A stretch of 64,000 bases of DNA. Origin: Gigantopelta aegis. Lineage: Eukaryota; Mollusca; Gastropoda; Neomphalida; Peltospiridae. The stretch spans positions 43,251,751 to 43,315,750 of the forward strand of contig NC_054704.1 of the NCBI RefSeq assembly GCF_016097555.1. The letters run 5' to 3'. The first letter of the stretch is position 1, and each line of letters begins with the position of its first letter. The translations under genes were made by a program, and so were the position numbers. Positions 10,871 through 56,898 of the stretch are shown piece by piece. A model generated the notes under the pieces. That model was not told where the DNA came from. It was given only the letters and a program-made list of their open reading frames with translations, and searched no databases.

Positions 10871-12088
10871 TCACATTGCTTCCGATTTGCACACTAGAAA
10901 ACACAATGTGACTTCGTTTGACCGTTCTCTCTGCCTGCTGGAACTGGGCATCTCTGGCACTCTCTCTCTCTGCAGCCTAATTTCCTCCTGACGTACAGAG
11001 ATGGGTGAGACTGGTACAGGTTCTGCTTCCTCGCTGGATTGCTCGACTGGGTTTGGATGGAATACTGCAGACAGGAGGTCGTGTTCAGTTTGCAACCTTG
11101 CAATGACATCTTGGGGGTGGCTGGATGATGTCAATCCTACCTTCGCATCGGCATCAAACAGAGCAGCAAAGGGAGAACACTTGATTCCAGTGTGATGGCT
11201 TGAGTTCTTTTGAAATTGCACAAACTTGAGTCCAACAGTCCAGTCCCGTGTGTCATTGTCACTCATCCATGCAATCAACATGTCTTTTATGTCGCAGTTG
11301 GCTCTTTCCACTGAACCATGTCTCTGGGGGTGTCTCGGCTTCCCATGAACGATGAAGAGCTCAGACCACATCTGCTTCAACTCAGTGATAAATTGCGCTG
11401 TGAATTCGGACCCGTTGTCACTTTGTAGTATTGAAGGGGATCCCAGCAGAAGGTAGATGTCCAGCAACTGATAAGCTACTTCCGATGCACGCTTGAGAGG
11501 ACGCAGGATGCAGAACTTGGTAAGATGGTCTTGGTACACCATGATCCATTTGTGTTGACCTTGGCACTTAGACTGCATGTCGATGAGGTCAACTTGCGCT
11601 CTGGAACTGAAGTCCTTAGACAGGATTGGTTTGACGACAATTCCCTTGGTAGCTGTCTGTTTCCGTTTTCTCTGGCACTCGATGCACATGGACTTGAACA
11701 AGATAATAGCATCCTGGGTGATGTTGGCGTAATTCTTGTTGATCTCCTTGATCATCTTGTCTTGTCCTCCATGACCAGAAGCGATGTGGGCGCACTTGAT
11801 GATGTCAAAGGTCTTATCGATGGTAGCGAAGTACAGTGGATGTTCCTGGTTTAGCTTCTTTCTGATGAGCTTTTGAACGTCCCCACACTGCAGTAGTTCA
11901 TATTTCTTAAGCAAGTAAAACTTACGCGGTGATTTTTTGGGTGCCTGGGTGGCTTCCAGCAACTCGCCAACAGTCTTAATGTATTCGTCCTTAGGTAGCA
12001 AGATACACTTATTCTCTCCATAGCTCGTGTACAGCGAACGCCTGAAAGTCTCCTCTAGATCCATTTTGCTAGTGACAGAGAACAGCAT
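10871..12088 (-). CDS. Integrase-like transposase of the Ginger-like element
   Basis: A 405-residue frame. The likely start is the second methionine (MDLEETFRRSL, residue 9). An N-terminal HHCC zinc motif is visible (HIASGHGG ... CIECQ, about residues 101-137). A DDE core follows: D in QVDLIDMQ, D in LQSDNGSEF, and E in GSVERANCDIKDM. This is an rve-type integrase fold, which would catalyse strand transfer at the inverted repeats. It resembles the KRBA2/SCAND3-like integrase proteins scattered through animal genomes. Beyond about residue 395 the expected C-terminal part, including a cysteine-rich CXC-like segment (CNCAGSKRC, NRCKCF), lies in other frames toward 10540, so the copy looks broken at its 3' end. 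Confidence 0.85.
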   Translation of the reverse strand: MLFSVTSKMDLEETFRRSLYTSYGENKCILLPKDEYIKTVGELLEATQAPKKSPRKFYLLKKYELLQCGDVQKLIRKKLNQEHPLYFATIDKTFDIIKCAHIASGHGGQDKMIKEINKNYANITQDAIILFKSMCIECQRKRKQTATKGIVVKPILSKDFSSRAQVDLIDMQSKCQGQHKWIMVYQDHLTKFCILRPLKRASEVAYQLLDIYLLLGSPSILQSDNGSEFTAQFITELKQMWSELFIVHGKPRHPQRHGSVERANCDIKDMLIAWMSDNDTRDWTVGLKFVQFQKNSSHHTGIKCSPFAALFDADAKVGLTSSSHPQDVIARLQTEHDLLSAVFHPNPVEQSSEEAEPVPVSPISVRQEEIRLQRERVPEMPSSSRQRERSNEVTLCFLVCKSEAM

Positions 12089-32900: not shown

Positions 32901-35900
32901 AGAAATTCGACGATTAGCTGAAATCGGTCAAGTGAGATAGAATTCACGTTTGTATTACCTTTGGGGCAGTGGACATCCTAAAACGTTGGGAGGTTGTCAT
33001 TTGTCTAGACAGTTGTTAATCTGTATTGTGCAATTAATTAAGAAAATGAATGGATCCAAGCTCACAAATAACCAAAGCAGGTTTCACACTTTATTATTCT
33101 TGCATTTCAATGTAAATGTTAGTACACCGTCGTCGACAAGTAATTTTATTAGTATACACATTACTGACAGCAACTGAAAAGGAGGGCGAGATGTAAAATT
33201 CAAAATCAGTATTTAACAGTCATCATTTTGAATGATAATGGTAATTCGGTATTGGGACCACCCCACTATTAAGACCACTTTTAATAAGTCCAGCCGATGG
33301 TCGCAGTAATGGGGTTTCACTGTATACTGAAGTGAATTAATGGCTGCATGTTTGTGTTTTCTCTTCAGGAGTGGAACCAAGTGGGCCCATGTGAGTTGTG
33401 CTCTTTGGATACCAGAAGTGAGCATTGGGTGTGCAGAGAAAATGGAGCCTATAACAAAAATATCAATGATTCCTGTATGTACTGTACTTTGTTTTTGTAA
33501 ATATTACACTGAAATAATGCTATGATTTTATTAATTTAAAAAAAAACCCCAAAACATTTTAACATAAAATAATTTTCATAAAGTGCTTATATTACCCCAA
33601 TTAGTAACACATCCCTGTATATATCACACAGATTGTTTCCAAGCACTTCTTTAATTTATAATCACTTTACAAGTTACTCTAAGATGCATTAAACATTTTG
33701 TAATTACATCAGTTTCATTATTTTCATTTATAACGTTGTTGTAAGGATTTCTTTCCGAGTATTCTTTTAGTTGGATTTTGTGATTTCATTTCAATTTTTT
33801 TTTTTTGAAAATCATTTCTTTGTCATTCATTTACAAATTTTTTTTTTATCTCCCCACACCCCCACCAGGCTAGTCGATGGGCACTGATCTGCTGTTTGTG
33901 CAAGGAGAGATACGGAGCGTGCATTCAGTGCTCTGTGAAGACCTGCAAGACGTCATTTCACGTGACCTGCGGCTTCCAGAACAACCTCAGCATGAAGACC
34001 ATACTCGATGACTCGGAGGAGCCCGATGGGGTTAAGCTAAAAGTTAGTTAAACATTTTGAGAAAAATTAAATAAAAATGCGTTTTTATGAAATACATTCA
34101 AAACTTGTTTTAAGCAGTCACATATGGGAGTAGTCAAAAGCTACCGCTTAAAGACATGTGGCCACTGAATACAGACTGCCATTACAGTCTTTAAAATGTT
34201 GTTTTTGTTTCTCTCGTTTTTTTTACTAATTATGATACAGTAACACACCACTATTAATTACTCCATGCAGTTCAATACAATGTCTATGTATATATTCTGT
34301 AAAATATACAACACTATTGACCGATTCATATGACTATTAATATTAGAGAGTGCTCTCAACTGAACAAAATGGACAGTTGTGGCCAGCTGTCCAGTATTTA
34401 TGTCCATTATTCCCGATAACAATGGTTTTCTGACCAAATTTAAAAACAAAAATGAACTACGATTCATATCCCAATATTTGGTGATTTTACTTGTTGGTAA
34501 AACGATCAAATTTATTATCAAATTAGCTGTCAAAACCAGCTATCAATCCCTGAAAATTACCGCAATGTGCCGCCATTTTTGTCGAGCGAAAAACCACTTT
34601 TTGAACTCGTAATTCCAAAGTATTTTACATTGAAAAAGACACCATCTTGTCAAATGATCTGTTTTCTGTATTACATTTTGGTTTCCGGCGAGTGCAGTCT
34701 GCAAAACAGTGGGAAATATAAATTGGAAAATTCACTGTATACAGTGTACACTGTCAACTGGCATGACGTCGGGCGAGATATCTCGCCTGCAGTAGTCAGA
34801 AGTTTACGGATGAAAGGATCAAACACTACATTTGGTTTAATCTGTTAGTTATTACACATTATTATGGTTGATTAAAAGTGCATATTATGCTATTAAGTGT
34901 AAGCTGTAAAGTTTGCACGCATTTATATAACTTGGGGTACATAAGGTGCACAAATGTGGCTTCTACTTGCAGGCATTCTGCCCCAAGCATACTAGGAAAC
35001 AGGACAATTCACAGTCCGATTCGGACAGCGATTCACCCAGAAAGGAAGGTCTGGGAACACCACGCAAAGATATGACTAAAGAAGAGTTAGCCAATCTACG
35101 AGCGAAAAAGCAAGTTATTTCTGTTACAATTTAAAAAGCCATGTCACTTTTTCAAAAGCGACATATTTCATTGTTGTGTTTTGATTTTAACTTTAGCATT
35201 AGTTGGATAGCTAATAGTTTATGAAAAATTACCTATCTCTTACAGTCTTTTTCTCCAAGGTAGATCTGTAGTATTTTATTTTGTAAGAAATGGAGAATAA
35301 TCCACAAGTACCAGTTGTGTACAAGGTGTATAAGTTAATGACGTCATAGACATAAATGACACACTAAAATTATGTCATCTGTTTATGGTTACTTGGGTCA
35401 TGACCTTGGAACAGCCAATCACAAAGCTCATAAGTGATCTACAACATATGTTGAAAACAGTATTGATGTACATCAGGTCATTCCTTACATACAGTTGTAT
35501 AAAAAAATATTTCTTCATATATATTTTGAGCTATGTACGAGGATAAAATTGATGCTAGTTTTGGCATTGGACTTTACTTGAATATACTAAAACATACTGT
35601 ACTGTCTGACAGAATAATAATAATAATAATAAAAATCCCTGTTTACTTCAGGATAAAAGAACTGGAGGCTGAATTCTATACAATAGTGGATGTTGCGAAG
35701 GTGTCTGAGGCGCTGGGTGTTGAAGAAGAGGTGGTGGAACTTGTTCTCTTCTACTGGAAGCTGAAACGGAAGGTTTGTTTCAGGCACTTCATTACCTTAC
35801 AACTGATAACGAGAAAGAACATGGCTGTACATTTTAAAATAAATATTCCTATCAAGAATATGCATGCAAAACAAAATACAAAAAGTGAGGTGGAAAAGTT

Positions 35901-47697: not shown

Positions 47698-50600
47698 ACT
47701 AGCACAACAATGCTATACGACCATGAGTTATAACCTCCACTGCAGAATTATCTCCCCTTGCCGGATGTGTAACCTACACCCGCGCATGGGTAGACCGTAT
47801 ATCCTCGTTTTTTGATTCTGGAGTCCTCCATTGCAGTCGTGTTCGAGTTCTGTAATAAAATTTGTGGTCAAATTGGCAATTTGTTTATTAATTTGTAATT
47901 TTGTTTTACTCTGTCATACGAGGTCTTTTGGGTGATTTACATGGGGTTAATGTCTGACACGGCTGCCTTGGGCTCCAACCGGTTGGTTGTGTGTGCCGAG
48001 GGGGGTTGTCTTAAACGACTGCCCCAGTTTGATCAGCATTTGTTATGTCATTCTTGTTGTTTTGAACGCCAGTGTCATATCTGTGTAAATTGGTCCCCCG
48101 CCACGTGGGGAAGGCTAAGAAGCTATCAAAAGACGCCGAGCGTAAGAGGATGATTAGACGTGAACGGGACGGGCGGTGGCAACCTCCGGGATCGTGCTCC
48201 ATTCCGATTTGCCGTCGGTCGGCAAGTCGGTGTCCAGTTCAAAGAGCTCGCGGACAAGTGGTAGGCGCAAGGGCGTCTCCTCGTCTGTTCGCCATCTTCA
48301 TGGTGATACCAGAAAACCCGAAGCGCCGCTTGGCGCGGAGGGGGCGCTGTTGTGGTTTCTTCCAGGTCGGGCTCCGTTCCACCTGGGGATTTGCTTTTGC
48401 CTCCGTCGGTGGAGGCGGCGCTTGTTACGGTTGTAACGGGGGCGTCAGTCGGATGGAGTGCAATCGTGGCAGGAAGGACTGTCTCTCAGTTCCGACTCCC
48501 ATCTTGCTGATGGGGGCAGAGTTATCGATCCTTCTGTGGAGGGGTCGATTAGCTCTAGAATGAAGTCCGCTTCGCGGCGCCGTTCGTCTCATCAGACTTC
48601 TGGTGGAGGGTTGGTCGTGGCGTCCCGAGGGCGCTGTTTCGGCCAACGCGTCTTTTGGCGCTACTTCGGTGATCGAGCCACTTGGCGAAATCGCGAAGTC
48701 TCACAACGTTGTCTCGGTCACGGAGCCGGGTGGCGTTTCGGGTGCGATGCCAGTGGGCGTCCCTTCTGTTGGGGCGCCTGTACAGCGTCATCATCTATGT
48801 TTCTCTTTTTGAGAATTTCATGGCCTGGCTAGGGGAATCGCCTATACCAGTCCCTCCACCGCCGGAGTTTCCAGCGAGACCGGGGTTGGACCAGTTTCCG
48901 GATTCGGCTGGTCCGCATCATCCTGCCCATCTAGTTTTGTTTCCGTTACGGTCAGCGCATGGCGCGTCGTTTGAGAAAATTTCTTCTTCGGAAGAGGATT
49001 TCCCCCCCGAATCAGTGTGTGGTTCGGGGGAAGGGTCGGCACCAGGTTCGGTGCTCGATGAGATTCCCATTTTTGCCGATGGTACGCCAGACGGCGATTA
49101 TGATTACCAGGCGGTTCTTGGTTTTGTACAGGAACAGGTCCGACTGGTGTGCGCGGATGCAATTCCGTCGGAGGAGGCTGTTAAGTCATACAAGGGTGTT
49201 TCGTTTGGAAACCGGCCTTTAGCGACGGACGCTCCGCGGCAGGATTTCGGCTTGCCGTTAGCGCACGAGGCGCATAAATCTCTTGTGGAGATTGATGCTT
49301 TGATTGCAGGTAGCGATCGTATTTTGGGGGCGGTGGTGGAAGAGTTTCCGGCAGCGTTAGCTACCGGGAAACTTGTCTGCGGCGAAGGTTTTGTCCACGT
49401 CTTCGTATAAGACAATGGGAGCTTTCTTCCTTTCACATCCAGCGGTCGTTTCCGCTAGGGTGAAGGCAGACTGCCACCCATCTCCTAATGTCAGTGTGCC
49501 ACTCACGGATTTAGAGACTTTGGAGAGGTTATCTAAACTTCTTTTTCAAGTCAATAACCATTTAGGTACGTTCCTATTTGGATTAAATAAAGCAGTCACG
49601 GGTCTTCCGATGGTTGTCGAGTTTCTAGACAAGAAAGCCATCCAGGGGGTAGATTTGGGCACTCCGGGAATTAGTGCCAACGCAGGTTTTCACTTATCTC
49701 GGGGTGGTTTTCAACCTTGTGGAGGCGTCCGTTCTTCCGACGGATTCGCGACTTCACAATTTCATGACGTTGGCGCAACGTCTTCTGGTGGAGCAAAGTG
49801 CGTCAGTGCGCATGCTCCATGTGTTGATAGGCCATCTTGAATCGCTGGCAGCGCTGAATGTGCGGTTAAGACGGTTTAAGAGACCGCTTCAATGGCATTT
49901 GTCCCAAGTGTGGGATGGTTTCAACTGGGATTTGGTGATACCATTGGGGCCTTGGTTCATTCTTCCGATCCAAGAGTGTCTAGTGGACAAGTGTATGTCC
50001 CAGGCCGTTCCTTTACACCCACTTTCTCCAGAGTTGGTCCTGTTTACCGATGCTTCCCTCGAGGGGTTCGGTGCACACCTTTTGTCAGGGGTGTGGACTC
50101 CTTCAGAGAGGAGTCGTCACATCAACCTGTTGGAGATGGAAGCGGTGCGTCGCGCTTGTCTCCATTTCAGGACTGTTATTCGACATCGTCAAATTTTCCT
50201 GAGGTCGGACAACACGTCGGTTGTTGCGTACCTCAATCGGTGGGGAGGCACCAAATCCCTGTCATTGTGTCTTGCGGCTTTGGAGATTCTGGAATGGTGC
50301 GACGATTGGGGAGTGGTGTTATCGGCCAAAACACATTCCTTCGTCCGTGAATGTCTTGGCGGACGCTTTGAGTCGTCGTTCCCCGGTTCAGACGGAGTGG
50401 ATGTTGCACCGGACGGTGGCTTATCAAGTTCTTCAGCTGTGGGGGAGTCCTCAACTCGATATGTTTGCCACTCGCCTGAACAGTCAGTTGCCAGTGTTTG
50501 TATCGCCGGTACCAGACCCACTAGCACTGGAGTACGATGCGTTGAGCATGGACTGGACGGGACTGGATTTTTACGCCTTTCCCCCTCCGGTTCTGCTTGG

Positions 50601-52150
50601 CAAGGTTCTGGCAAAGATCAGACAGCAACCTTGTCGTGTCACGCTCGTAGCCCCGAGTTGGGCAGCTCAAGCCTGGCTTTCTCCGCTCCTGTCACTTTTA
50701 GTGCAGGAGCCGGTGCGGTTGCCGTTGATACCTGATCTGCTCATTCAGAGACTGCGTCGGACAGAGTGGCATCCGAAGCCGGAGGTTTTCCGACTTCACG
50801 CGTGGCGGTTGTCGGGGTTTCCCTCCGAAACCGAGGCTTTTCTAAACGGGTTGCTGAGCTCGTCTCCTCTTCGAAGCGCCAGTCTACGGAGAGGGTCTAC
50901 CAGTGTCATTGGCGCGCTTGGGTTCGTTGGGCGACTGAGAGGGACGTGGATCCCTTGTCGCCTACTGTTAATGACTTAGCCGAGTACTTTCTGGCTCTTG
51001 TCCAAGAAAGACAGCTGAAGGTTCAAACAGTGAGAAGTCACCGGTCGTCCATTTTCACTACTCTGAGGCAGTGTGGACGTCAAGATTTCTCAACGAATCT
51101 TGTGTTGCATGACTTGCTTAAGTCGTTGCAAAACACGGTTGAGAAGCCTTCCATTTTGCCTAAATGGAATGTGTTTCTGGTTCTGCATGCACTCAAAGGG
51201 AAACCCTACGAGCCTTTGAAATTCGCCAGTCTTCGTCATTTGACGTGGAAAACTTTGTTTCTGGTCTAACTAGCGGCTTGCCGTCGTATTAGTGAGATTC
51301 ATGCTTTTTTGCATGATTTAGTGGATTACAATACGGACGGGTCAGTTACGTTACGTACTGATCCTGTTTTCGTGGCTAAGAACCAGGTGCCAGGGAAAGA
51401 GTTTCCTCCGGCCATCATTCAGTGTTTATCTCGTACGCTTTCTGCGGATAATTCTGATAGACTTCTTTGTCCGGTGCGGGCTTTGAAATTCTATTTGGAG
51501 CGTACTAGAAATCTCCGGCAAAACACTAAGAGACTGTTTATCTCTTTCACGTGCCAACCGGGAGACATTAGGAAGAATGCTTTGTCGAGATGGATTGCTG
51601 CAACCATCAAACTGGCATATGAGAAGGCGGGTGATCATGTTCTGCGGAATTTCTCCGTTCAACCTCATGAGATTCGGGCGATTTCTGCTTCCCTTAATTT
51701 CCATGATTCTTTGGACATTTTCAAGGTCATGAGTGCTGGGTTTTGGAAAGGTCGACACACGTTTGACCGGTTTTATTTCCGTGATATGGCTGTTGGTCCG
51801 GACGGAACTCAGCGGATTGAATCAGTCATTGCAGGGCAGCAAGTCGTTTCGGTGCGCAGGACCACGAGTAGGGGGGCGACCTTTATTTCGTCCAGTCGCT
51901 AGCGGCAGTCTTTCTGGGAGATAGTTCTCCACCTCCTGTTTGGAGAGTGGGGCGTGGATGGTTGACTATCTGGGGCAGTCGAATGTCTTTCACCATTACT
52001 TGGTGTGCGGGTTTCCTCACCTTGTTAACTTGGTTTTCTTTTAATTGGGGTTGTAGTTCTTCAATTTAAAAGTCACTTTGACATTTTATACCTCGTATGA
52101 TGTGGGTTGCTTTTTCACTGTATCATTACTTGAGACGAACACTACTGGTT
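47698..52150 (+). mobile_element. DIRS-type (tyrosine-recombinase) retroelement, broken
   Basis: A fossil with several breaks (roughly four or more). Parts in order: a terminal segment at 47698-47810 that recurs inverted at 58396-58535; a gag-like region (about 47932-49840) with an N-terminal Cys/His-rich stretch; the C-terminal part of a reverse transcriptase joined to an RNase H domain (about 49674-50450; LVLFTDASLEGFGAHL, LRSDNTSVVAYLN, NVLADALSR); then a tyrosine recombinase (about 50820-51902; HEIRAIS and FDRFYFRD). RNase H followed by a tyrosine recombinase in place of a DDE integrase marks DIRS/PAT-like elements. GC content is clearly higher than in its surroundings, which fits a fairly recent arrival. 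The right limit is uncertain. Confidence 0.8.
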
Positions 52151-53091: not shown

Positions 53092-53097
53092 ACTAAT
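53092..53097. other. Target-site duplication, left (ACTAAT)
   Basis: ACTAAT directly precedes the Polinton-like element and is repeated directly after it at 56716-56721. Six bp is the duplication length typical of Polinton/Maverick integration. Confidence 0.85.
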
Positions 53098-53425
53098 AGT
53101 AGTATCAGGGCCTGTTGCGCCTGATGACCTACGTTCCGTGACCTTGATGACGTCACGGCCTTGTGCCGTGACCTCGTCCTACTGACCATGACCTACTTTC
53201 CGTGACCGTGACCGTGATGACGTCGCGTGACCTCGTCCTACTGACCCGGCCCTGACCTACTTAGACTGACCGTGACCTACTTAGACTGGCCTACGGTGCC
53301 GTGTGCAACGTCCTACTGACCCGGCCCTGACCTACTGACCCGGCCCCTGACCTACTTAGAACGGCCCCTGACCTACTTAGACTGGCACGAAGAGTATAAA
53401 AAGGCTAGATTCGGTTTAATTGTCA
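53098..53425. repeat. Left terminal inverted repeat of the Polinton-like element
   Basis: GC-rich (unlike its flanks) and built from degenerate short tandem phrases: 'gacctacttagactgg', 'cctactgacccggccctgac' and 'gatgacgtcacggccttgtg'. It matches the reverse complement of 56446-56715 with small length differences among the tandem phrases. The inner end holds a TATA box. Confidence 0.9.
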
Positions 53426-53466
53426 TTCGCTCGCCGAAAACTATCAGATCTACGTTCAATCCAGAG
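53385..53466 (+). promoter_or_regulatory. TATA-type promoter inside the left terminal repeat
   Basis: GTATAAAAAGG at about 53393-53403 lies some 65 bp before the ATG at 53467, in the right place and direction to drive the PC4-like gene. The mirror image (CCTTTTTATAC) in the right repeat at about 56465 points inward from the other end, so both termini carry a promoter-like core. Confidence 0.6.
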
Positions 53467-54006
53467 ATGGCTTGTTCCACAAGTGATGAAGCGAGATGTC
53501 GTCTAGAACTTGGAACTAACGTCTACGTGGTGGCCAAGTTATGGAAAGGGGACACTGCTATTCACATAAGGAAATTTGACAGTGAGAAGGGGAAAACGTT
53601 CCCCACCAAGTGAGGTATTGTCCTTAGTCTTAAACAGTGGATCGAGCTGTGTGGATGTAAAAGCCAAATTGACGAAACAATTTCAGCATTAAACCAGGGG
53701 AAAGACGAAAAATTGTTCAGACACCTTGGTGCCAACGTCCAAGTCAGCATCGACAAGAACTTTGCTGGGGTGCACCTGCGTCAGTGGTGGTGGTGTGATG
53801 AAACTAAATCCATGAAACCTTCGAAGAAGGGAATATTCCTTTCTCTACAACAATGGGAGAAACTGAAAGGCTGTTTCACAGTCATGTGTGACTTTGTACC
53901 AGAGCTGAACTCGATTGTGCCCTGCACCATGCAAGACGACCATCAAAACCAGATGGGATTTCTTCAGTGTAACTTCTGCAACCCTAACGAGTGTCACCAG
54001 TGGTGA
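53467..54006 (+). pseudogene. Polinton-borne gene with two PC4-like (Sub1/p15) ssDNA-binding domains
   Basis: The first unit has NVYVVAKLWKGDTAIHIRKF, then GIVLSLKQWIEL and IDETISAL, closely following the human PC4 pattern (YVSVRDFKGKVLIDIREY, KGISLNPEQWSQL, IDDAVRKL). The second has LGANVQVSIDKNFAGVHLRQ and KKGIFLSLQQWEKLKGCF. PC4/Sub1 proteins bind single-stranded DNA and act in transcription or replication; two domains in one chain could form the dimer-like unit. The start is the first ATG after the TATA box. Part of a fossil element, with about one break. I am confident of the fold and unsure of the function in the element. Confidence 0.75.
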
Positions 54007-54154
54007 ACGAGTTTTGTTTTGGATGAACTCAAAGGTATAAAAGAATGGATTTATGGTTTACACTTCATTTGCTTCGCGACTGTGCTAGAGAACAGACGTG
54101 TTTTATGATTCTGACATTCTTGTGGCTTGTTGCACTCTATCTTGAACGAAGAAG

Positions 54155-54691
54155 ATGGCATCGGGATATTCGAGCAGTCTTAGTAGTAGCAGCAACAGTA
54201 GCGACGAGGACGACGTCTTGGTCTGCAAATGTTCAGAAAGACATACAATCAAATGTGTGACTAGCAAACAAGATGAGAAGAAGAGTACTCATTGTGTGGA
54301 TCAAGCGGATGCTACACGCAAAATTGGGGATAGAACTGAAGATGGCGAACTCGTGGATGAACCCACAGATCAGACGGATGCTGCCTGTGACACAGACCCT
54401 GTCTGGGATGAGGAAGACTGCTATTCGAGACGTTACTTGTTCTGTCATCGTCCTGAAATGAGACATTTCTATGCCCAGATGCAGACATTTGGGTGGTGGC
54501 CCATACAGTTACGCCAGAAACCGAGGGAACTCGCCAAGGCCGGTTTCTACTACACAGGGGATCACGATGCCGTCGTCTGTTACTGTTGTGGACTACGCGC
54601 CTACCGATGGCAGAGAATGGACGACCCAGTGATGGAACATTACAGACTCTCTCCAAGATGTCCCTATGTGAATAACGTGTTCAGACATTAA
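54155..54691 (+). CDS. Polinton-borne BIR-domain (IAP-like) protein
   Basis: A 178-residue frame that looks whole. The N-terminus is serine- and acid-rich (SSSLSSSSNSSDEDD). One BIR domain occupies about residues 103-176: MRHFYAQMQTFGWWP, LAKAGFYYTGDHDAVVCYCC, then the zinc pattern C-x2-C-x16-H-x6-C ending in EHYRLSPRC. There is no RING finger. BIR proteins inhibit caspases or regulate ubiquitin signalling, and viruses with large DNA genomes often carry them to block host apoptosis. It is unclear whether the element took it from a host IAP gene. It lies 148 bp downstream of the PC4-like gene on the same strand. Confidence 0.8.
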   Translation: MASGYSSSLSSSSNSSDEDDVLVCKCSERHTIKCVTSKQDEKKSTHCVDQADATRKIGDRTEDGELVDEPTDQTDAACDTDPVWDEEDCYSRRYLFCHRPEMRHFYAQMQTFGWWPIQLRQKPRELAKAGFYYTGDHDAVVCYCCGLRAYRWQRMDDPVMEHYRLSPRCPYVNNVFRH

Positions 54692-54834
54692 CTGTTTCAA
54701 ACACGCGTGAGACACTTGAATGTTTTTTGTCATAACTGTATGTTTTGTCATATATTTTATGTACTACATTTTTGTTGTTTAGTAATAAAAAAAAAAATTG
54801 TATCCTTCGGTTATTTATAAATAGCATGACTTTG

Positions 54835-54999
54835 CGACATGTATGTCAGTTGAGAACCATGTCTCGGTGGGAAAGGTACCTAGAGTCTATTTACTACGAT
54901 GTAAAACATCCTGGGAGTTATGCAGGTCCTAGTAAACTGTATCAAACTGTTAAAGCAGAGGGTAAATTTAAAATTCCTCTGACACGTATTAACCTTTAG
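54835..54999 (+). pseudogene. Integrase-like remnant in the Polinton-like element
   Basis: The frame includes RWERYLESIYYDVKHPGSYA and GPSKLYQTVKAEGKFKI. The 'IYYDxxHPGSxxGxxKLYxxVKxEGK' pattern is what I recall from the N-terminal part of Polinton/adintovirus-type integrases. Only this short piece is recognisable. It supports the Polinton assignment independently of the ends. Confidence 0.6.
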
Positions 55000-55227
55000 A
55001 CTACTGGATTAATTTTTAACAAAAACCACGTTGAGTGGGTACAAGTTTATAATTTTTACTCACATATATTCACTTAAATGTTTCATAAATACATGAAATA
55101 AAGTTCATATATGAATCGGTAAGTATTATTTTCGTGTCTTTTTTTGTAATTTTTATTATTTTAGATCGGCTAATGGTGATTAAAATTAGGCAAAAAATCG
55201 AAAAAGTTGCGTTTACTTACGGGCATT

Positions 55228-55503
55228 TGTGGCCAGCTGTCCAGTATTTATGTCCATTATTCCCGATAACAGTGGTTTTCTGACCAGAATTTTTTTTAAA
55301 ACCCGAACTACGATTCATATTGCAATATTTGGTAATTTTCGTTGTTGGTAAAACGATCAAATTTATTATCAAATTAGCTGTTACAATCAGCTATCGATCC
55401 CTGAAAATTACCGCGACGTGCCGCCATTGTTGTCAAGCGAAAATACTTGCCGAAAACCACTTTTTGAACTCAAAATTTCAAGGTATTTTCAATTGAAAAA
55501 ATC
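55228..55503. repeat. Dispersed repeat inside the Polinton-like element, copy 2
   Basis: High identity to 34377-34640 from 'tggccagctgtccagtattt' through 'aaaattaccgc(g/a)a(c/t)gtgccgcc'. Host-genome repeat, so it landed in the element after integration, or the element carried it in. Confidence 0.85.
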
Positions 55504-55553
55504 AAAACAAAAACCACCATTTTGAAAAAAAATCTTTTTTCTTAATTATATTT

Positions 55554-55753
55554 NNNNNNNNNNNNNNNNNNNNNNNNNNNNNNNNNNNNNNNNNNNNNNN
55601 NNNNNNNNNNNNNNNNNNNNNNNNNNNNNNNNNNNNNNNNNNNNNNNNNNNNNNNNNNNNNNNNNNNNNNNNNNNNNNNNNNNNNNNNNNNNNNNNNNNN
55701 NNNNNNNNNNNNNNNNNNNNNNNNNNNNNNNNNNNNNNNNNNNNNNNNNNNNN
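55554..55753. other. Assembly gap (200 N)
   Basis: An unbroken run of N inside the Polinton-like element. A round 200 may be an arbitrary gap size, so the true length of the element is unknown and genes may be missing here. Confidence 0.98.
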
Positions 55754-56445
55754 ATTGACGTGTGACCTCACATTTTTTTTTAATGATGTCAACTCACTAA
55801 TGCATAAAAATAAACATGCAGACGACACTTCGATAGATATTTTGGGCATGCTCGCTATAAATTACAAAAACTACAAATGTTTTAATTATCATACAGGATA
55901 TGTGTTTTTGACCTATTTTGGTTCCTATGTAGAAAAAACTAATTTTTAAAGTAACAAATAATTTCTTAGCTATTTGACTGTCCACACATCTTACAGACTT
56001 AGAACGTAAACAAACGGTAGGTTTTACTTTTAAAAAAAAGTGAAATCCCAAATAACACGACTTAATAGAGACAACGACTCAACAGGGGTGAGAGTATTTA
56101 TTTTCTGTCTATCATTTTTGAATGACGTCAGTCTTTGAATAACGTTGCATACAAGAACAACTGCTTCCGTTTTTAGAAGGCAGAAAACTTTCAAGAAAGG
56201 ACGATTTTCAAAAAGTACCATTTGTTAAACGTTATATTTGTCCACCACTGCAAACACATAGTTCTTCAAACTAAATCAGAATAAGAAAATTAACTTACTA
56301 TTTTCAAGTCTTGATCCAGTCGATTTCTAACACTGACAAAATCTCTCACAATGATCCAAATGAATCTTCTTTCTTCTAACAATGACAAAATATCTCAAAC
56401 GAATCTCCTAACAATGACGTAGTAGATGTGTTCGAATAACAATCG
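55754..56445. other. Right interior of the Polinton-like element, no domain recognised
   Basis: Minus-strand frames of 84 and 63 residues (55797-56051, 56030-56221) could be driven by the inward promoter of the right repeat, but show no motif I recognise. At 56321-56425 the phrases 'acaatgaca' and 'atctc' recur in a degenerate short repeat. Confidence 0.4.
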
Positions 56446-56715
56446 TGACAATTAAACCGTATCTAGCCTTTTTATACTCTTCGTGCCAGCCTAAGTAGGT
56501 CAGGGGCCGGGTCAGTAGGTCAGGGCCGGGTCAGTAGGACATTGCACACGGCACAGTAGGCCAGTCTAAGTAGGTCAGAGCCGGGTCAGTAGGACGAGGT
56601 CACGTGACGTCAAGGTCAAGGCCAGTCTAAGTAGGACGAGGTCACGGCACAAGGCCGTGACGTCATCAAGGTCACGGAAAGTAGGTCATGAGGCGCAACA
56701 GGCCCTGATACTACT
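56446..56715. repeat. Right terminal inverted repeat of the Polinton-like element
   Basis: The reverse complement of the left repeat: it starts at the inner end with 'tgacaattaaaccgtatcta' and 'gcctttttatactcttcgtg', then the 'agtaggtcagggccgggtca' tandem phrases, and ends 'ggccctgatactact' followed by ACTAAT. Confidence 0.9.
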
Positions 56716-56898
56716 ACTAATATCTGGAAACATAAATCTATGCTCTCACTCTGTTAAAAACCCTATATTCTAACAAAGAAATATCCGTTACAGATGTGAA
56801 ATCTCCGTTACCGTATACCTTACCTGCAATATTCTTTACACATCATACGAAACTGAACGAATTATCTGAATGTTACCAAAAATAGTACAATCTACAAG

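Follow-up and report, generated by a model that had tools for sequence, protein, structure and literature searches.

The window analysed here, 64,000 nucleotides of the Gigantopelta aegis genome (contig NC_054704.1, positions 43,251,751 to 43,315,750), contains a mobile element that is quite probably a decaying copy of a Polinton (Maverick/adintovirus-like) family. The family carries a PC4-like gene and a BIR gene at its left end and occurs in a large and a small form. The initial annotation had presented the element as a miniature Polinton. This part is not supported: a run of 200 N interrupts the contiguity of the copy (positions 55554-55753), and the integrase start that it carries goes with the long form. 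Most likely, the element in the window is a worn Polinton shortened by an assembly gap.

The window copy and its 18-kb relative

The ends of the element were read in the window as first annotated, with a perfect 6-bp duplication (ACTAAT) on both sides, AG...CT ends and inverted repeats of about 0.3 kb. The element itself spans positions 53098-56715, begins with AGTAGTATCAGGG and ends with CCCTGATACTACT (type AGTAGT...ACTACT). The main blocks of its terminal inverted repeats (TIRs) are 101, 87, 64, and 54 nt long and match at 92, 98, 97, and 94%, respectively. The same ends and genes recur genome-wide: 19 copies, the window included, were read at both ends, and their 6-bp duplications are perfect in 17 and have one mismatch in two. 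This recurrence goes beyond chance. Furthermore, the right arm of the window copy matches all 11 other right-arm loci at 77-91%, two of these (L050 and L054) only partly (contigs and loci are given by our working labels, C and L). A TATA-like box points inward in each TIR (TATAAAAAGG at 53395-53404 and CCTTTTTATA at 56468-56477), as if there were a promoter at each end, and, of the 30 loci retrieved with BIR DNA, 28 contain the motif.

Among the genes of the window copy, the BIR gene is an open, intronless frame with a clear Pfam match, as had been proposed (Table 1). The PC4-like gene was recovered in part: PF02229 matches both downstream of an in-frame stop (2.1e-10) and upstream of it (1.6e-4; 21.5 bits, under the 25-bit cut-off), but that stop breaks the frame. 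Similarly, the integrase-like piece is a genuine gene start up to position 54987, whereas the sequence that follows it is an unrelated TTAA-flanked insertion. Searched alone, this piece gave no Pfam match; it is recognisable as an integrase start because other copies continue the same frame into rve and chromodomains (in L015, rve PF00665 at 5.6e-15 and chromodomain at 1.4e-8). Rfam gave no matches at the gathering threshold.

The assignment to Polintons/Mavericks is backed by an 18.3-kb relative on C15. Its termini lie at 12931901 and 12950183 (18,283 bp), with ATTACG at both ends, and a PC4 gene at 12932273 is paired with a right arm at 12949622; about 10 kb of this copy were read, with no N in that part. 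The left piece (L006) contains a frameshifted PC4, an open BIR, and an integrase frame that runs to the end of the piece. The middle piece (6 kb) contains a 473-aa open reading frame (ORF), a protease, an ATPase-like gene, and PolB. The adenain-like protease of the large form matches PF00770 above its cut-off in this piece (1.2e-5), and PolB matches PF03175 (2e-8, L055); no PolB was found in the readable part of the window copy. The A32-like ATPase matches Pox_A32 at 0.0016, below the curated cut-off.

On the basis of gene order and of the usual layout of such elements, we take the 473-aa ORF to be the capsid gene, with no supporting match in Pfam and none in a PDB search. In the copy on C14, an ORF between integrase and capsid is the presumed penton, for which no family match was obtained. 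Scans of IMG/VR with the integrase, BIR, PolB, and presumed capsid returned no confirmed relative. In PHROGs, the integrase matched two transposase families and one family of unknown function, and nothing was found for the other four proteins. Altogether, the gene set of the large form comprises PC4, BIR, integrase, presumed penton and capsid, adenain-like protease, an ATPase-like gene, and PolB.

Table 1. Features of the Polinton copy, with positions counted along the window
Feature	Position	Strand	Basis
Left target-site duplication ACTAAT, 6 bp	53092-53097	.	Sequence
Left terminal inverted repeat, AGTAGTATCAGGG..., degenerate units of ~20 bp	53098-53425	+	Recurs elsewhere with different 6-bp flanks
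Two-domain PC4-like gene, in-frame stop at 53611-53613	53467-54006	+	Pfam, pieces searched separately
BIR gene, 178 aa, open, intronless	54155-54691	+	PF00653, 1.7e-21
Start of rve integrase gene, interrupted	54859-54987	+	rve and chromodomain follow in other copies
TTAA-flanked repeat nested in the integrase, CCTTTAGACTACTGG..., cut off by the gap on the right	54988-55553	.	Genome matches
200 consecutive N, read as a scaffold gap, true length hidden	55554-55753	.	
Polinton right arm, without long ORF	55754-56445	.	Matches other right-arm loci
Right terminal inverted repeat	56446-56715	-	Inverted-repeat comparison
Right target-site duplication ACTAAT, 6 bp	56716-56721	.	Sequence

Gene content, descent and selection in the small form

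Searches with the DNA of PC4, BIR, the right arm, and the ATPase located the copies, whose ends were read afterwards. The PC4/BIR similarity sample comprised 36 distinct places (38 loci, including two repeats), which are the best-scoring ones and not a random draw. Downstream of BIR, 13 of these places carry the integrase and 20 lead directly to a small gene, here called YKLY; the remaining three fall in neither class: one lies at a contig end, another at a gap, and the third has neither gene. In 17 of the 20 YKLY places, a presumed packaging-ATPase frame also lies within the locus, and PC4 is present in 21 of the 36.

Four copies without integrase were read over their whole length in pieces and measure 4961, 5053, 5057, and 5355 bp. 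They have the shared ends, and no integrase, presumed capsid, protease, or PolB was detected in them by tblastn. For ten more small-form copies, a 2-kb piece around the predicted right end was retrieved: the end was found in all ten, at 4.9-6.0 kb, with duplications perfect in nine and with one mismatch in one. The middles of these ten copies were partly read, and the length of one (L074) may be misread, given an N run of 106 at its piece edge. Overall, 16 copies without integrase were read at both ends (14 perfect duplications and two with one mismatch); L014 and L021 (left terminus) stand outside these end counts, and L018, L034, and L035 have no recognised left terminus. Two reduced copies with PC4 were also found. 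The first, on C3, is 7525 bp long, with GGTGTT twice and no N in the pieces read; a gene inserted in it (L059, C3:16441000-16446500) has the look of a Tc1-like transposase. The second, on C3812, is 5119 bp long, with TACGTG twice and no N in the sequence read, which is all but about 300 bp.

The small form thus keeps the terminal repeats, BIR, the YKLY gene, an ATPase of its own and, sometimes, PC4. The reduced lineage that the initial annotation had inferred is therefore real, at about 5-6 kb, but its gene content differs from the proposal, as it also retains YKLY and a presumed packaging ATPase. The small-form ATPase matches Pox_A32 (0.0013) and Adeno_IVa2 (0.00054), both below curated cut-offs, and has a P-loop-like GPTxxGKT, as does the large-form ATPase. 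The two share 33-42% identity and lie on opposite strands relative to BIR; we conclude that they are different genes. At C4:110.17 Mb, the possibility that the small-form ATPase lies inside one longer element was rejected, as small-form pieces adjoin or nest there; the locus (L099, C4:110170800-110176700) has the appearance of reduced Polinton copies side by side or nested. In a 4.1-kb piece beside the right arm L064, tblastn found no family gene.

In the tree of 35 BIR genes (midpoint root, used only for display), 17 rows in which no integrase was detected, 16 with YKLY and one unassigned, lie to one side of a branch with 100/99 support. The YKLY label changes four times in total on this tree, and at least three changes are forced by well-supported branches, which indicates that the module was lost or exchanged more than once.

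Then, we considered the ratio of nonsynonymous to synonymous substitution rates (dN/dS), for which pairs are non-independent and the restriction to open copies biases the values downwards. Of 36 BIR copies from both forms, 27 are open, with a pooled dN/dS of 0.26. For 12 rows with integrase the value is 0.31 (0.20-0.46), and for 11 open rows of the clade without integrase it is 0.44 (0.25-0.75). The small-form ATPase is open over 300 codons in 15 of 24 sampled copies, with a dN/dS of 0.18 in the first 140 codons (hereafter the core) and 0.31 (0.19-0.52) overall. PC4, open in 14 of 21 copies, has a dN/dS of 0.64 on very little divergence. The core of the small-form ATPase and BIR are under purifying selection.

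Non-autonomous copies of DNA transposons are common, and the 5-6 kb elements could be passive internal-deletion derivatives in which BIR, YKLY, and ATPase are dead passengers. The frames that are broken or incomplete (nine of 24 for the ATPase and nine of 36 for BIR, the latter in both forms) are in line with this. However, the ATPase is not the gene of the large form, differing in both sequence and strand as described above, and passengers are hard to reconcile with the dN/dS of the ATPase core and of BIR in the no-integrase clade. For these reasons, we regard this explanation as unlikely.

The probable assembly gap and the size of the window copy

A total of 14 N runs were found in 105 fetched loci. 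Twelve of them are wholly contained in a locus, and each of these is exactly 200 long (nine distinct gaps); the two cut by a piece edge measure 106 (L074) and at least 363 (L103). The 200-N runs look like scaffold placeholders. The element contains one of them, so that 3.6 kb was rejected as a measured size and gives no evidence of a miniature. A 200-N run also lies inside the element in L013, with TCCAGC on both sides, and inside the protease gene of the C14 copy, followed by the right arm; the break points in these two copies differ from that of the window. Among the copies with integrase, a single one was read at both ends with no gap seen, and it is of the long form.

The window copy could still be a true mini-Polinton of about 3.6 kb, with the gap concealing only the end of the nested repeat. 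The matched ACTAAT on both sides agrees with it, and there are reduced copies in which the sequence read contains no N, such as that on C3812. Conversely, the window copy carries the start of the integrase, a gene associated with the long form, the wholly internal N runs all have the placeholder size, and L013 and the C14 copy have the same kind of run at other break points; we therefore hold a true mini-Polinton to be improbable. Less probable still is that the scaffold fuses two unrelated Polinton copies at the gap: joins in high-copy sequence are a weak point of assemblies, but the 6-bp duplication would match by chance about once in 4096.

The sequence to the left of the gap belongs to an abundant and nearly uniform TTAA-flanked repeat (CCTTTAGACTACTGG...), of which the window contains fragments at 54988-55553 and 34371-34637. 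We take it to be piggyBac-like, judging by its TTAA target. As query, it returned 2056 first-look candidates (the query included 88 nt of integrase); the 40 further matches listed have 99-100% identity over about 232 bp. In three other copies the repeat is bounded by TTAA and is about 0.7 kb long. Positions 55221-55500, which had been a candidate for Polinton sequence, were excluded as part of this repeat, which would account for their 84% match to window positions 34371-34637.

The window also has traces of other mobile elements. A 405-aa open frame at 10871-12088 (minus strand) reads like the rve-type integrase of another element, and the overlapping broken frames at 48072-51902 (plus strand) resemble a DIRS/tyrosine-recombinase retroelement.

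Abundance, proposed mode of life and known systems

The genome searches returned 686 candidates for BIR, 303 for PC4, 728 for the small-form ATPase, 131 for the right arm, 57 for the presumed capsid, and 48 for PolB; these are first-look numbers, influenced by divergence and by the length of the query, and do not represent curated copies. Candidates for BIR and for the small-form ATPase outnumber those for PolB and capsid more than tenfold. We give almost no credence to the idea that the BIR genes arose by retroposition of host IAP genes and only happen to lie near transposons: they are intronless and dispersed, like the hard clam genes taken as retroposition in the accessible text of Song et al. 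2021 (PMC7831173), but a family TIR lies within 1.5 kb upstream of BIR in all 30 places fetched by BIR DNA (window included), and a TIR or PC4 lies upstream in four of six further BIR matches sampled by hand. The fifth of these six (L105) has a family BIR gene at 86%, with TIR-like matches of only 18-19 nt, and the sixth (L100) has neither TIR nor PC4 and only 48% protein identity. The Pfam BIR search of the genome gave 759 candidates. Among the best 150, 44 are at or near a place listed for family genes (20 for BIR DNA, 19 for small-form ATPase, 14 for PC4, and six for capsid, in overlapping lists of the best 40 each). Furthermore, 134 of these 150 share their contig with another, and four of the 134 have one within 10 kb.

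PC4-type domains bind single-stranded DNA and IAP-type domains inhibit cell death. Satellite viruses, virophages, and phage satellites are small genomes without polymerase and capsid genes and with a packaging gene. We read the small form as a putative helper-dependent, possibly packaged satellite. The large form would provide polymerase and integrase in trans; with ends common to both forms, a single integrase and a single polymerase could act on either. The small-form ATPase may work on the DNA of the small form itself, possibly moving it into capsids made by the helper. BIR would delay cell death while the element replicates, and PC4 might coat displaced single strands or assist transcription. 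The constraint on the ATPase and BIR in a lineage without integrase and polymerase suggests that there is a gain from their expression. In its complete version, this explanation has 5-6 kb elements parasitising the 18-kb Polinton, from which they would take polymerase, integrase, and capsid by way of the common ends, with their own non-orthologous ATPase steering packaging and BIR saving the host cell, and would partly explain the bivalve IAP expansion; so extended, it is possible but doubtful.

Several observations weigh against the interpretation of the family and its two forms given here. As reported above, nine of the 24 small-form ATPase frames are broken; beyond the core, dN/dS rises to 0.71, near neutral. 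Even the 18.3-kb copy (L006) has a frameshift in PC4, the capsid call has neither a Pfam nor a PDB match, and the numbers of candidates are subject to the limits stated with them. The true length of the window copy is not readable, and a genuinely short copy is possible. The N run of L103 (C3:83247100-83248100, positions 639-1001) is not of the 200-N type and may be a larger gap or sequence not returned, which also reads as N; the odds shift slightly towards such a short copy. Finally, mobilisation in trans, packaging, and what BIR and PC4 do for the element are all inferred.

Compared with known systems, the family has the 6-bp duplications, AG...CT inverted repeats, and rve integrase with chromodomain of Polintons/Mavericks and, in the large form, their PolB and adenain-like protease, alongside an ATPase-like gene and presumed capsid genes; the two-domain PC4-like and BIR genes at the left end set it apart. 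Like non-autonomous DNA transposons, such as miniature inverted-repeat transposable elements and internal-deletion copies, the small form has the ends of a larger element without its integrase. Unlike them, it keeps several coding genes, two of which are under purifying selection, and its presumed packaging ATPase is unlike that of the large form. Without polymerase and capsid, and with a presumed packaging gene and shared ends, it would work like satellites and virophages, with no claim that it belongs to them.

In the literature searched, no paper was found that brings Polintons and PC4 together, nor any Polinton with both PC4-like and BIR genes; that search did not cover the direct pairing of Polinton and BIR, and an earlier description is possible. 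The available portions of two adintovirus/Polinton papers (PMC11071296, PMC11071308) draw no tie to apoptosis or PC4. Planarian Burro elements, giant Gypsy-like long terminal repeat (LTR) elements, contain BIR domains according to the excerpted text of their report (PMC6431247). They are likewise mobile elements with BIR but are LTR retrotransposons with the BIR within a polyprotein and with unrelated machinery. Mavericks are reported in molluscs and in the hard clam in the accessible passages of two bivalve papers. In the hard clam, 51 of 159 IAPs are intronless and dispersed, which the consulted part of Song et al. 2021 (PMC7831173) attributes to retroposition; the same text describes an enrichment of DNA transposons around IAP genes.

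Polintons and non-autonomous transposons are already known, and the BIR load of the elements described here may bear on bivalve IAP expansions. The present analysis corrects an element size that rested on an assembly gap and points to a two-tier Polinton system, in which a rarer large form is accompanied by an apparently far more numerous small form with selected BIR and ATPase genes. This would be a testable satellite case within an animal Polinton family. If the proposed explanation is true, the spread of the small form would fill the genome with intronless single-BIR genes, and part of the bivalve IAP expansion so far attributed to retroposition would consist of genes carried by transposons. 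If general, it would offer a DNA-transposon explanation for the dispersed, intronless BIR genes of bivalves.

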